The notes beneath the pieces are model-generated. The model saw nothing but the letters and a program-made list of their open reading frames with translations, did not search any database and was not told the DNA's origin. From NCBI RefSeq assembly GCF_028368935.1, contig NZ_JAQNDK010000001.1, forward strand, positions 744,001 to 808,000: a DNA stretch of 64,000 nucleotides. The letters run 5' to 3'. Origin of the DNA: Sorangium aterium. Lineage in GTDB: Bacteria > Myxococcota_A > Polyangia > Polyangiales > Polyangiaceae. This document shows positions 39,753 through 44,132 of this stretch, piece by piece. The position numbers were made by a program, and so were the translations under genes. Each line of letters opens with the position of its first letter. The first letter of the stretch is position 1.

Positions 39753-41333
39753 ATGGGTCAGGTGGTGAGCGAGCGCCCGATCGGGGGCAACGGCAGCGGT
39801 CCTGGCATGAACGGGCACGGGGGCGGGGCGATCCGCAGCTACGCGCCCGCGACCGGGGAGCTCCTTGGAGAGGCCCCGAACACGAGCGCCGAGGAGGTGC
39901 GGGCCGCGGTCGCCCGGGCGCGGCGCGCGCAGGAGGCGTGGGGCGCGCTGCCCGTGGAGGAGCGCTGCCAGCGGGTCCTGCGCTTCCGCGACGCCATCGT
40001 CGATCGGACGGACGAGATCGTCGATCTGCTCTCGCGCGAGTGCGGCAAGCCGCGCCACGAGGCGCTCTTGCACGAGGTCCTTGTCGCGGCCGACATGGCG
40101 ACGTACTTCGCGCAGGTCGCCCCGAAGGCGCTCGAGCCGCACGAGATCAAGCTCCACCTCTTCAAGCACCGGCGCAGCTGGGTCCACTACGTCCCCCGCG
40201 GCGTGGTCGGCGTGATCTCGCCGTGGAACTTCCCGTTCCAGCTCGCGCTGCGCGACGTGCTCTCGGCGATCGTCGCCGGCAACGCCGCCGTGCTCAAGCC
40301 GAGCGAGGTGACGCCGCTCATCGCGCTCAAGCAGAAGGAGATCTGGGACGGCGCGGGCATGCCCGAGGATCTCTTCCAGGTCGTCACCGGCTACGGGCCG
40401 ACCGGCGCGGCGCTCATCGACAGCGGCATCCAGATGCTCCTGTTCACCGGCAGCGTCGGCACCGGCAGGAAGGTCGCCGCCGCCTGCGGCGAGCGCCTGA
40501 TCCCGTGCGTGATGGAGCTCGGCGGCAAGGCGCCGCTCATTGCCTGCGCGGACGCGGACATCGAGCGCACGGCGCAGGCGATCGTCTTCGGCGGCTTCGC
40601 GAACGCCGGGCAGGTGTGCGTCGCGGTGGAGCGGGTCTATGCGCACCGAGAGATCCACGACCGGCTGCTCGAGCGGACCGTCGAGATCACGAAGGGGCTG
40701 AACCAGGGCGATCCGGGCAAGGAGTTCGTCGACGTGGGGGCGATCATTTTCCCGCCGCAGATCGACGTCGCCGAGCGGCACATCAAGGACGCTGTCGACA
40801 AGGGGGCGACCGTGAAGGCCGGCGGCAAGCGCGCGCCGGGGCAGGGCCAGTTCTTCGAGCCGACGGTCCTCGCCGGCTGCGATCACGCGATGACGGTGAT
40901 GACCGAGGAGATCTTCGGGCCGGTCGTGCCCTTCATGCAGGTCGCGACCGAGGAGGAGGCGATCCGCCTCGCGAACGAGTCGCACCTCGGCCTCAACGCC
41001 TATGTCTTCTCGGAGGACACCGATCACGCCCGCCGGCTCGCCGAGCGCCTGCAGGCCGGCAGCGTGCTGGTGAACGACGTGCTCATGAACGGCGCCCTCC
41101 CCGACGCGCCGTTCGGCGGCGTCAAGCAGAGCGGCTTTGGCCGGGTGATGGGCGAGGACGGGCTCCGGCAGATGTGCGACGTCAAGCACATCAACGCGGA
41201 CCGCATCGCGCTGGGATCGAAGGACCCGACCTGGTTCCCCTACACCGCGTCGTCGTACAGCTGGTTCAAGCGGGGCATGCGCGCGCTCTTCTCGAGCGGC
41301 AGCTTCCTCCGGCGCATCGGGGAGCTCTTCTAG
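39753..41333 (+). CDS. NAD(P)-dependent aldehyde dehydrogenase
   Basis: The 526-residue product oxidises an aldehyde to the acid. ALDH landmarks: ISPWNFPFQLALRD (154-167), cofactor loop LKPSE and FTGSVGTGRK, general base Glu255 in MELGGKAP, nucleophile Cys289 in NAGQVCVAVERVY, and EEIFGPVVPF. The C-terminal PYTASSYSWFKRGMRAL tail resembles members acting on long-chain or succinate-type aldehydes, but substrate cannot be assigned. The start is chosen at the ATG preceding MGQVV; the Gly-rich first 25 residues are poorly conserved, and an internal start is possible. An 83% identical fragment of a relative lies at 45082-45171. Confidence 0.93.
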   Translation: MGQVVSERPIGGNGSGPGMNGHGGGAIRSYAPATGELLGEAPNTSAEEVRAAVARARRAQEAWGALPVEERCQRVLRFRDAIVDRTDEIVDLLSRECGKPRHEALLHEVLVAADMATYFAQVAPKALEPHEIKLHLFKHRRSWVHYVPRGVVGVISPWNFPFQLALRDVLSAIVAGNAAVLKPSEVTPLIALKQKEIWDGAGMPEDLFQVVTGYGPTGAALIDSGIQMLLFTGSVGTGRKVAAACGERLIPCVMELGGKAPLIACADADIERTAQAIVFGGFANAGQVCVAVERVYAHREIHDRLLERTVEITKGLNQGDPGKEFVDVGAIIFPPQIDVAERHIKDAVDKGATVKAGGKRAPGQGQFFEPTVLAGCDHAMTVMTEEIFGPVVPFMQVATEEEAIRLANESHLGLNAYVFSEDTDHARRLAERLQAGSVLVNDVLMNGALPDAPFGGVKQSGFGRVMGEDGLRQMCDVKHINADRIALGSKDPTWFPYTASSYSWFKRGMRALFSSGSFLRRIGELF

Positions 41334-41637
41334 AGCGACGGTCACCCGCTTCGGAGACGGGCCCACCTCGACGTTTTCGGTGCTCAGCGCACCGGAGTGC
41401 GCTTGCGCGCCGAAAACGTCGAGGTGGGCCCGTCTCCTGTGCGGGAGACCGCCGCTCGCAGAGGTGGGCGGAAACCGCGGTAGAGCGGCGCGCTGTCGGC
41501 GGCGTGGCGGGGAAACCTCGAGGCCGTCAGCTCGCCAGACGCCAGCTGGACGTCCACCAGGCGGGCACAGATCCTGCGCTTCGCGCCGGGCGCGCACGCC
41601 CTTGCGTCCCTGCCCGCTTGTGATCCAGGCTGAACCC
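41334..41637. other. Interval after aldehyde dehydrogenase, dominated by a large palindrome
   Basis: About 300 bases. The first third is the palindrome at 41353-41437. The remainder (to the antitoxin start) shows no gene I can support. Confidence 0.5.
41353..41437. repeat. Perfect 28-bp inverted repeat with nested hairpin
   Basis: Arms 41353-41380 and 41410-41437 are exact complements (28 of 28; begins GGAGACGGGCCCACC). The 29-base loop contains a second hairpin GCGCAC-CGGA-GTGCGC. It lies 20 bases after the aldehyde dehydrogenase stop. Possible roles: very strong terminator, mRNA 3' stabiliser, or palindromic mobile repeat. Confidence 0.9.
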
Positions 41638-41841
41638 ATGTCTACCCGGCCCGGTTCCTTGCCGAGCGACCCCATCCTCGCGGCCATCGATCGCGCGCCG
41701 CGTGTGCAGAGGCTCACGCCGGAGCAGCGCGCCGAGCTCGATCAGGATGTCGCCGACATTGCGGCGGGCCGTGCGCGCCTCGTCGCTCACGAGGATCTGC
41801 CGCAGGCCCTGGAGGAGCTGGCCCGCGAGCAAGGCGGATGA
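41638..41841 (+). CDS. Small antitoxin-like protein (type II TA)
   Basis: ATG 41638 gives 67 residues; GTG 41620 would add six. The sequence is helical and acidic (LTPEQRAELDQDVADIAAGR, LPQALEELAREQGG), as in antitoxins of RelE/ParE modules. The stop overlaps the next start (ATGA), the usual antitoxin-toxin coupling. No Shine-Dalgarno stands out. The call rests mainly on the adjacent toxin-like frame. Confidence 0.55.
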   Translation: MSTRPGSLPSDPILAAIDRAPRVQRLTPEQRAELDQDVADIAAGRARLVAHEDLPQALEELAREQGG

Positions 41842-42071
41842 GCTTCCACGTCGCCTGGAACTTCCCTGCGCTGGTCACGTTTTACAGGCTGCCGATGCAC
41901 TCGGCCTTCATGATCGACTGAGCGGTCGTTCGCTTCGCGGAGACAGGCGAAGGCGAGCTCGTGTGGGAGGCGCCCTATCACCTCCTCAGCGCGGGATTCC
42001 ACGATGTGGTGCTCGCGATCGAGCGTGAGACGCGGACGATCACCGTGCTCCGCATCTACCGCGCTCGCTGA
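41838..42071 (+). pseudogene. RelE/ParE-like toxin with in-frame TGA
   Basis: Reading from the ATG that overlaps the antitoxin stop gives 77 codons ending at 42071, broken by TGA at codon 28 (41919-41921). After the stop the frame continues FAETGEGELVWEAPYHLL and AGFHDVVLAIERETRTITVL ending RIYRAR, the strand pattern of RelE/ParE toxins. TGA differs from the Arg codon CGA by one C-to-T change, so a recent inactivating mutation is likely. Too short for standard frame searches because of the break. Confidence 0.65.
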
Positions 42072-42144
42072 GCGCCTCGGCGCCGCAGGGAGCGCCGCCC
42101 GATGGAGCGGGCCCCTCGATCACGACCGGCCCCGCGCTGCGGCG

Positions 42145-43458
42145 TCACAGCAGGCTCCCCTGGAGGATGACCTGCGCGACGTTGAAGTAGATGACGAGCC
42201 CGGAGACGTCGACGAGGGTCGCGACGAACGGCGCGGACGCGCTGGCCGGGTCGAATCCCAGCCGGCGGATCACGAAGGGCAGCATCGCGCCGGCGAGCGT
42301 CCCCCACGCGACGATGCCGACCAGGCTCGCGGCGACGGTGGCGGCCACCTGCAGGTAGTGCTCGCCGTACGTGTGGAAGATGGCCTGCCACACGAGGATG
42401 CGGACCAGGCCGATCGTGGCGAGGATGAGGCCGAGCGAGAGGCCGGCGGTGAGCTCGCGGCGGACGATGCTCCACCAGTCCTTGATGGTGACCTCGCCGA
42501 GCGCCATCGCGCGGATGATCAGCGTCGTCGCCTGGGATCCGGAGTTGCCGCCGCTCGAGATGATGAGCGGAACGAAGAGCGCGAGCACGACCGCCCTCGC
42601 GATCTCGTCCTCGTAATGCCCCATCGCGCTCGCGGTGAGCATCTCGCCGAGGAAGAGCGCCGAGAGCCAGCCGGCGCGCTTCTTCACCAGGGCGACCATG
42701 CCGGTCTTCATGTAGGGCGTGTCGAGCGCCTCCATGCCGCCGAGCTTCTGGATGTCCTCGGTCGCCGCGCTCTGGACGACGTCGACGATGTCGTCGACGG
42801 TGACGATGCCCTTGATCCGGCCCTCGGCGTCGACGACCGGAATCGCGTTGAGGTCATGCTGCGCGATGACGCGCGCGACCGCCTCCTGGTCCAGCGTATC
42901 GGGCACCGAGATGACGTCCCGCCGCATGACCTCGGACAGGGCCTTGTCGCTGCGCGCGGTGATGAGGTCCCGGAAGGACACCACGCCCAGGAGCCGCTGC
43001 TCCTGGTCGAGCACGTACGCGTAGTAGATGGTCTCGAGCTTCGCCTGGGCCTGCCGCTGGAGGTACCGGATCGCCTCTCCGACCCTCATGTCGGGCCGCA
43101 GCCGCGCGAACCGTGGGCTCATGAGCCCGCCGGCCTCATCCTCGGCGTACGCCATGAGCGCCGCGACCTCGCGCCGCGTCGGCTCGTCCAGCATCTCCAG
43201 GAGCGAGGCGCGGAGCTCCTGGGGAACGAGCTGGATCACGTCCGCGGCGTCGTCGGGCGCGAGGAGCCGCATCCAGAGCCTGCGCTCGCCGGCCTTCATC
43301 GCGAGGAGGACGGCGGCCTGCTCCTGCTCGGCGAGGCCGAGGAAGAAGCTGTGCGCCTCGCCCCGCTCGAGGTGCTCGACGCCGTCGGCGCGCTCTTCGG
43401 GGGACAGCACCGCCCAGATCTCGCCGAGCTCTGCGGCGGTAAGACGGTCGTCGGACAT
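42145..43458 (-). CDS. mgtE: Magnesium transporter MgtE
   Basis: The 437-residue homodimeric Mg2+ channel has an N domain (about 1-125, with LLAPDDAADVIQLVP), two CBS domains (about 128-255, e.g. AIPVVDAEGRIKGIVTVDDI) that gate by Mg2+ binding, then five membrane helices (about 280-437) with PLIISSGGNSGSQATTLIIR, the pore signature. ATG at 43456-43458 follows a near-perfect Shine-Dalgarno GGAGGTGA five bases upstream. No riboswitch-like leader is evident. Confidence 0.96.
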   Translation of the reverse strand: MSDDRLTAAELGEIWAVLSPEERADGVEHLERGEAHSFFLGLAEQEQAAVLLAMKAGERRLWMRLLAPDDAADVIQLVPQELRASLLEMLDEPTRREVAALMAYAEDEAGGLMSPRFARLRPDMRVGEAIRYLQRQAQAKLETIYYAYVLDQEQRLLGVVSFRDLITARSDKALSEVMRRDVISVPDTLDQEAVARVIAQHDLNAIPVVDAEGRIKGIVTVDDIVDVVQSAATEDIQKLGGMEALDTPYMKTGMVALVKKRAGWLSALFLGEMLTASAMGHYEDEIARAVVLALFVPLIISSGGNSGSQATTLIIRAMALGEVTIKDWWSIVRRELTAGLSLGLILATIGLVRILVWQAIFHTYGEHYLQVAATVAASLVGIVAWGTLAGAMLPFVIRRLGFDPASASAPFVATLVDVSGLVIYFNVAQVILQGSLL

Positions 43459-43609
43459 GGGTCACCTCCACGACGAGGTAGCGGGCGAGGAATGCTGGAT
43501 CGAGGATGTCGAGGCGCGCGACCTGAGGTCCCGCTGCAACACCATGCCCCGGCGCGCCGAGCATCTACCGGCGAGCTCGGCATGCGCAACGGGGATTTTT
43601 CGGCTCAGA

Positions 43610-44132
43610 TCAGACCGGCACGGGCTCGGCGGGCTTGACCTGGACGGGCGCGGGCTCAGGCAGCGCAGGCTCGTCCGGTGTGGCGGCGCTCCCCCGGCGC
43701 TTCGGACGGAGCCTTCGCAGCGCGTTGCGGAACGAGGCGGGGCTGAACGAACGCCTTGAGCCGCGCGCCAGGGCCGGCTCGCCTTGATCAGCTGGTCGAC
43801 CGATCGCACCTGATACGCCCGGTGCGCCTGCCCTCGCCGAACCAGAGGTTCGCGGTGTCGAGGAGCTGGATGGCGCCGCGGAGCAGCGCGCGCCGCTCGG
43901 GGCCGTACGCCTTGCTCGCGAGCGGCGCCTCGTACTGGACGACCGCCAGGTAGAGGTCCCGGAGCTCCGTGAGGGTGGTCGAGATGGGCTGACTCGGCTC
44001 CATGACCTCGCGGACGATGCGGTCGAGCTCTGGACGCGCTTGTTCGAGGAGGGTCTGAAACTCCGCGGGGGTGCCCACCGCGCGGGTCTCCTTCCGGACC
44101 ACGAGTCGCTCTTGTGACAGCTCGATTCCCAT
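43610..44132 (-). pseudogene. Degraded hypothetical gene with several frameshifts
   Basis: The ATG at 44130-44132 has a good GGAGG upstream. The first ~100 codons read cleanly (RLVVRKETRAVGTPAEFQTL, LRDLYLAVVQYEAPLASKAY, LLDTANLWFGEG) and then the frame fails at about 43815. A second frame continues QAHRAYQVRSVDQLIKASRP, and a third frame from about 43750 gives FSPASFRNALRRLRPKRRG with a Pro/Val-rich end stopping at 43610-43612. At least two frame changes are needed, so this is decay rather than one error. Unknown family. Confidence 0.6.

Follow-up and report, generated by a model that had tools for sequence, protein, structure and literature searches.

A short uninterrupted gene overlapping a second frame that is closed early by a single stop codon raises the question of whether a chromosomal addiction module has been caught shortly after the loss of its toxin. 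Such a locus is located at 41638–42071 of the window, a stretch of 64,000 nucleotides from Sorangium aterium, whose genome assembly comprises 7 contigs (13.47 Mb; completeness 99.4%). A sequence-only reading had proposed that an antitoxin-like gene is followed here by a RelE/ParE-like toxin frame that was recently disarmed by an in-frame TGA. The features of the locus are listed below.

39753–41333, + strand: presumed aldehyde dehydrogenase gene, left neighbour; position kept in the relatives carrying the pair
41638–41841, + strand: antitoxin-like gene, intact; 67 amino acids; weak match to PF09720 (Unstab_antitox); 80–85% identity to the antitoxins of four relatives
41838–41841, + strand: ATGA overlap of antitoxin stop and toxin start; identical four-base overlap in 10 of 12 wider-family relatives
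41838–42071, + strand: putative RelE/ParE-like toxin frame, interrupted; 77 codons; intact homologues L003, L004, L005 and L006/L018; profile-profile match to PF05016 proteins
41919–41921, + strand: in-frame TGA at codon 28; CGG (Arg) in all four intact homologues
42145–43458, − strand: presumed mgtE-like transporter gene, right neighbour; adjoins the pair in this genome only and is absent there in the fetched flanks of the relatives

The interrupted frame and its orthologues

The antitoxin-like ORF is uninterrupted from the ATG at 41638 to the TGA at 41839–41841, and the second frame runs from the ATG at 41838 to the TGA at 42069–42071 with a sole internal stop, at codon 28. The coordinates given earlier were exact, and both the break in the toxin frame and the integrity of the antitoxin were confirmed. 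From their sequences, we take the two flanking genes to encode an aldehyde dehydrogenase and an mgtE-like transporter. When the toxin frame was searched against 97 genomes of relatives (own genome counted), matches at E ≤0.01 were obtained in 7. Full-length, stop-free copies, 83–90% identical, were found in four of the five other Sorangium genomes (the records of these four carry the name Sorangium). All four copies lie directly downstream of the same dehydrogenase gene as in the window, and each is preceded by an antitoxin 80–85% identical to that of the window. In the fifth genome (G003), the dehydrogenase is present (~90% identical), different genes stand behind it, and the pair was not found. 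A scan of a wider contig collection, from which near copies of the own genome were possibly excluded, returned the same four loci and none further. Judged by its open counterparts in four other genomes, the interrupted frame is real and not a product of chance.

The sequence-only reading had suggested aligning homologues to see Arg at codon 28, and all four copies found at the locus encode Arg there (CGG). Its proposal that the TGA lies one C-to-T change from CGA holds only with CGA as an intermediate, as the CGG of the relatives differs from TGA at two bases and could have been converted through either CGA or TGG. The stop is known from a single genome, in which an assembly error is indistinguishable from a mutation by sequence alone, and one miscall would be enough if the true codon were CGA. 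An error of sequencing or assembly within an intact toxin gene is nevertheless very unlikely as the source of the TGA, given that the codon is two bases removed from that of the relatives, that the adjoining genes are full length, and that broken toxins with differing lesions recur across Sorangium (see below). The counts of CGAGCG do not support the idea that C is systematically miscalled as T there, since this hexamer is abundant in the window (355 CGAGCG against 66 TGAGCG); in the relative L016, the counts are 33 and 10.

The age of the stop was assessed from the substitutions in the toxin gene. Among intact copies (six pairs), dN/dS is 0.21–0.30, which indicates purifying selection on the gene in the relatives, and between the broken copy and the four others, with codon 28 excluded, it is 0.18–0.25. 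The changes private to the broken copy comprise 5 synonymous and 5 non-synonymous substitutions, compared with 6 and 5 for the intact copy of G001, counts that come from a small sample of 77 codons; the branching order in a dehydrogenase tree is poorly resolved. Neither measure reveals relaxation or an excess of amino acid changes in the broken copy. Because such an excess is missing, the stop is probably young, the gene having probably evolved like a working one over most of its separate history; the description of the toxin as recently disarmed agrees with this lack of any sign of long decay.

Relationship of the frame to RelE/ParE toxins

The HMM search suggested earlier for the joined frame was negative: with X at the stop, and with E values up to 10 allowed, neither Pfam nor NCBIfam gave a match. 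Three of the four intact orthologues were likewise without a Pfam match at E 10, the fourth matched only an unrelated model (E 0.088), and searches of the orthologues against NCBIfam and PADLOC gave nothing useful. A direct match to PF05016 above its cut-off is absent for the joined frame and all four orthologues. Searching 183 genomes of the order with the four orthologues yielded 17 places in 14 genomes at E 0.01 (orthologues and window counted). Twelve remoter places were read as frames; an upstream ORF ends at +1 of the toxin start in 10 and within five bases of it in the other 2. Ten of the remoter proteins were compared with Pfam, of which two (L023 and L025) passed the PF05016 cut-off, three matched below it, and five had no match.

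With hhalign, a profile of nine family members, from which L023 and L025 were excluded, aligned with five PF05016-positive proteins at 97.0% (E 9.7e-11) over 74 columns, a match to a reference set that was obtained through the wider-family search and is thus biased toward matching; controls answer this bias in part, in that none of 100 column-shuffled profiles reached the value and the reversed profile likewise fell short. The four orthologues alone scored a weak 8.5% against the strict PF05016 set, a value nonetheless higher than those of the 100 shuffles, and 92.7% when L023 and L025 were part of the reference set. In each of four profile comparisons, the real score was unmatched by 100 shuffled profiles. 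Comparison with the four heterogeneous ParE hits of the own genome gave no match.

Solved structures were not matched in a single-sequence search, and a close profile gave a chance hit only. A wide profile reached a toxin-like protein, Rv2866 and RelE at E 0.075–0.14, hits that are not taken as proof because repeat-protein and oxidase hits, apparently spurious, ranked better by E-value. An AlphaFold2 model built from four near-identical rows was of low confidence (mean pLDDT 58.9).

RelE is a ribosome-dependent nuclease in which conserved basic residues act in the active site. The reference RelE/ParE set keeps R54, R56, R61, R81 and Y85 (L053 numbering). In the profile alignment, R54, R56 and R61 are replaced by Leu, Ser and Asp in the intact orthologues, which carry one Arg near R81, end before the position of Y85, and do not keep most positions invariant in the reference set. 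The C-terminus, described earlier as typical of a toxin, is without several arginines invariant in that set. Because of the three replacements and the early end, RelE-type nuclease activity is doubtful even for the intact copies, and with the conserved arginines missing the toxicity of these orthologues is not assured; a ParE-like action is still conceivable from the sequence. We take the frame to be a remote, uncatalogued branch of RelE/ParE, the earlier family label being supported by the profile-profile match and the PF05016-positive intermediates but not by any direct model match.

Against PF09720, the window antitoxin scored 17.3 bits (E 0.0049), below the curated cut-off of 23.3, and the best orthologous antitoxin, at 21.0 bits, was under the same cut-off. 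The window pair has the adjacency, overlap and antitoxin-first order of type II toxin-antitoxin pairs. The missing model match and the loss of most invariant RelE/ParE positions might be taken to mean that the product is no toxin but some other small protein, coupled to a short helical one, and that its disappearance is unrelated to addiction; we regard this as unlikely in view of the profile-profile match, the gene layout shared with PF05016-positive relatives and the PF09720 match of the antitoxin, weak as it is. A chromosomal type II toxin-antitoxin pair in which a RelE/ParE-like toxin was inactivated by a nonsense codon is the likely explanation. The original interpretation as a toxin-antitoxin pair is thus upheld by the layout, the intact homologues and the remote RelE/ParE homology, with a family link of the putative toxin weaker than had been stated.

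In the intact pair of the four relatives, the two genes would probably be translationally coupled through the ATGA overlap and, judging from the behaviour of the family, the antitoxin would be produced ahead of the toxin, which it would bind and keep inactive. Translation of the window copy would end after 27 residues, limiting any product to the first strand plus a portion of the helical N-terminus, with no sheet core; the ancestral protein was presumably toxic, and the truncated product is presumably inert. The cell would no longer be held by this pair. The antitoxin may still be open because the stop is recent and antitoxin loss would be neutral once the toxin is dead. Compared with known type II RelE/ParE (PF05016) systems with a PF09720 or RelB-like antitoxin, the locus shares the antitoxin-first order, the stop/start overlap and a small toxin aligning over 74 columns; it differs in that the window toxin is broken, the intact orthologues lack several of the reference-invariant arginines, and curated models find no match.

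Antitoxins without an intact toxin

Of 108 genomes of the family searched for PF09720 antitoxins, 53 have at least one at the threshold of E 1e-6. The DNA behind 135 antitoxin places, all of those found but one, was examined, and the downstream toxin was classed with a profile built from intact toxins; one place classed as intact (L072) has seemingly lost the usual overlapping start. The window pair was left out of the counts because its antitoxin scores under the threshold. In the six Sorangium genomes, an intact toxin stands behind 16 of 36 antitoxins and is missing behind 20 (3 stop, 3 frameshift, 5 partial, 9 none found). For the rest of the family, the toxin is intact in 68 of 99 cases and not in 31 (2 stop, 3 frameshift, 14 partial, 12 none found), the class of none found possibly concealing toxins of other families in both sets. 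The difference (Fisher p = 0.015) is a hint only, because the copies are mutually related and the genomes unequal in assembly quality; in Sorangium, the toxin half of such pairs seems unusually prone to breakage.

In the own genome, two of the four PF09720 antitoxins precede a broken toxin, one with a TGA and one with a frameshift. At L085 (G000:C4:546195-546356), a second module of the own genome, an intact PF09720 antitoxin precedes a ParE-like toxin cut by an in-frame TGA, at which, by eye, the related toxin L078 has Arg. A group of nearly identical antitoxins from five genomes (L098, in the own genome at C5:1041416-1041577, with L070, L073, L075, L076, L082, L092 and L094) is without an intact toxin in 7 of 8 copies, the lesions differing. 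Among remote relatives of the window module, L060 (G148) has a toxin cut by a TGA and an open antitoxin, and L030 (G004) has a frameshifted toxin and an antitoxin that is apparently shortened too.

The Sorangium toxin lesions are diverse, comprising TGA, TAG, TAA, frameshifts and deletions, and the accompanying antitoxins are conserved. The diversity of lesions bears on the idea that the window TGA is read through or recoded, or that translation restarts at GTG codon 42 (41961), so that a functional product persists. No decay has accumulated beyond the stop, and the GTG is private to the own genome and preceded by GAAGG. Recoding of TGA was rejected, however, because TAG, TAA, frameshift and deletion lesions are beyond its reach; the relatives carry Arg at codon 28, and a restart would produce a 36-residue fragment lacking the N-terminal strand and helices. 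The chance that a functional product persists is accordingly slight in the extreme, and inactivation of the toxin by the nonsense codon remains the preferred reading.

When an addiction module decays, the toxin is expected to be lost first, since the opposite order would harm the cell. The reverse situation was sought among 24 PF05016 matches in the six Sorangium genomes. An upstream PF09720-like antitoxin (E 1e-5 or better across most of the profile) was present for 15, and one (L115) has a partial antitoxin and a toxin match that is partial too. The remaining 8 are without a PF09720-like antitoxin at E 1e-4; by eye, 7 of these have an ORF for an antitoxin of another type ending at the toxin start, and L112, a doubtful partial PF05016 match, has none there. 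None of these 24 matches clearly combines an intact toxin with a broken antitoxin, and the asymmetry of toxin-first loss in Sorangium is that expected from theory.

Selection on lone antitoxins was examined by dN/dS. In the largest antitoxin group (7 of 8 copies without an intact toxin), the value between toxin-less pairs is 0.29, and in the group of L085, L086 and L088, whose toxin is broken or missing in all three carrier genomes, it is 0.13 at dS 0.44. Two further groups gave 0.39 and 0.55 between two toxin-less copies, and groups with intact toxins gave 0.18–0.35. These values would fit selection after toxin loss and, equally, losses too recent to show. It is conceivable, if rather improbable, that Sorangium systematically disarms RelE/ParE modules and keeps the antitoxins under selection as an antidote stock (anti-addiction) or as regulators, the window pair being a fresh entry. 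If orphan antitoxins were indeed selected, Sorangium would be a good place for testing anti-addiction.

Orphan antitoxins are already well described, and the window locus is a further case and one of ordinary gene decay. In a survey of the Klebsiella pneumoniae complex, 2253 orphan antitoxins are counted, with degraded pairs and anti-addiction as possible reasons (PMC7192599). The retention of an antitoxin beside a lost or degraded toxin is common to both; the window locus differs in its genus, in the single nonsense codon within an otherwise complete toxin frame, and in the intact orthologues that relatives carry at this locus. The notion that chromosomal antitoxins can act in anti-addiction is established, with CcdA of Erwinia chrysanthemi as an example (reviewed in PMC7354431). 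By analogy, the window antitoxin might neutralise an incoming toxin, a putative role; unlike in that case, no toxin that is a close sister of the window toxin was found in the own genome. A literature search on Sorangium and toxin-antitoxin systems returned no such survey among the matches listed, by title and abstract opening, and one on inactivated toxins with intact antitoxins returned no related case. The window locus apparently captures the first step of decay early, with intact orthologues at the same place, and the survey quantifies the asymmetry in one genus, with many antitoxins lacking an intact toxin and no clear case of the reverse.

Flanking sequence

Two observations concern the DNA on either side of the pair. 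The segment at 42098–43621 (~1.5 kb), in which the mgtE-like gene lies, is missing from the equivalent position in the flanks fetched for the four relatives, and homology restarts at 43622–43640 in three of them; the segment may have been either gained in the own genome or moved. Between the dehydrogenase gene and the antitoxin, an inverted repeat with arms of ~28 bases occupies 41353–41437. Its core, GGGCCCACCTCGACGTTTTCGG, occurs in 59 copies in the own genome (two or fewer mismatches) and in all six Sorangium genomes, with 8 to 67 copies each, and the same pattern written backward, used as a control, has 0 copies in all six. The inverted repeat belongs to a dispersed repeat family.
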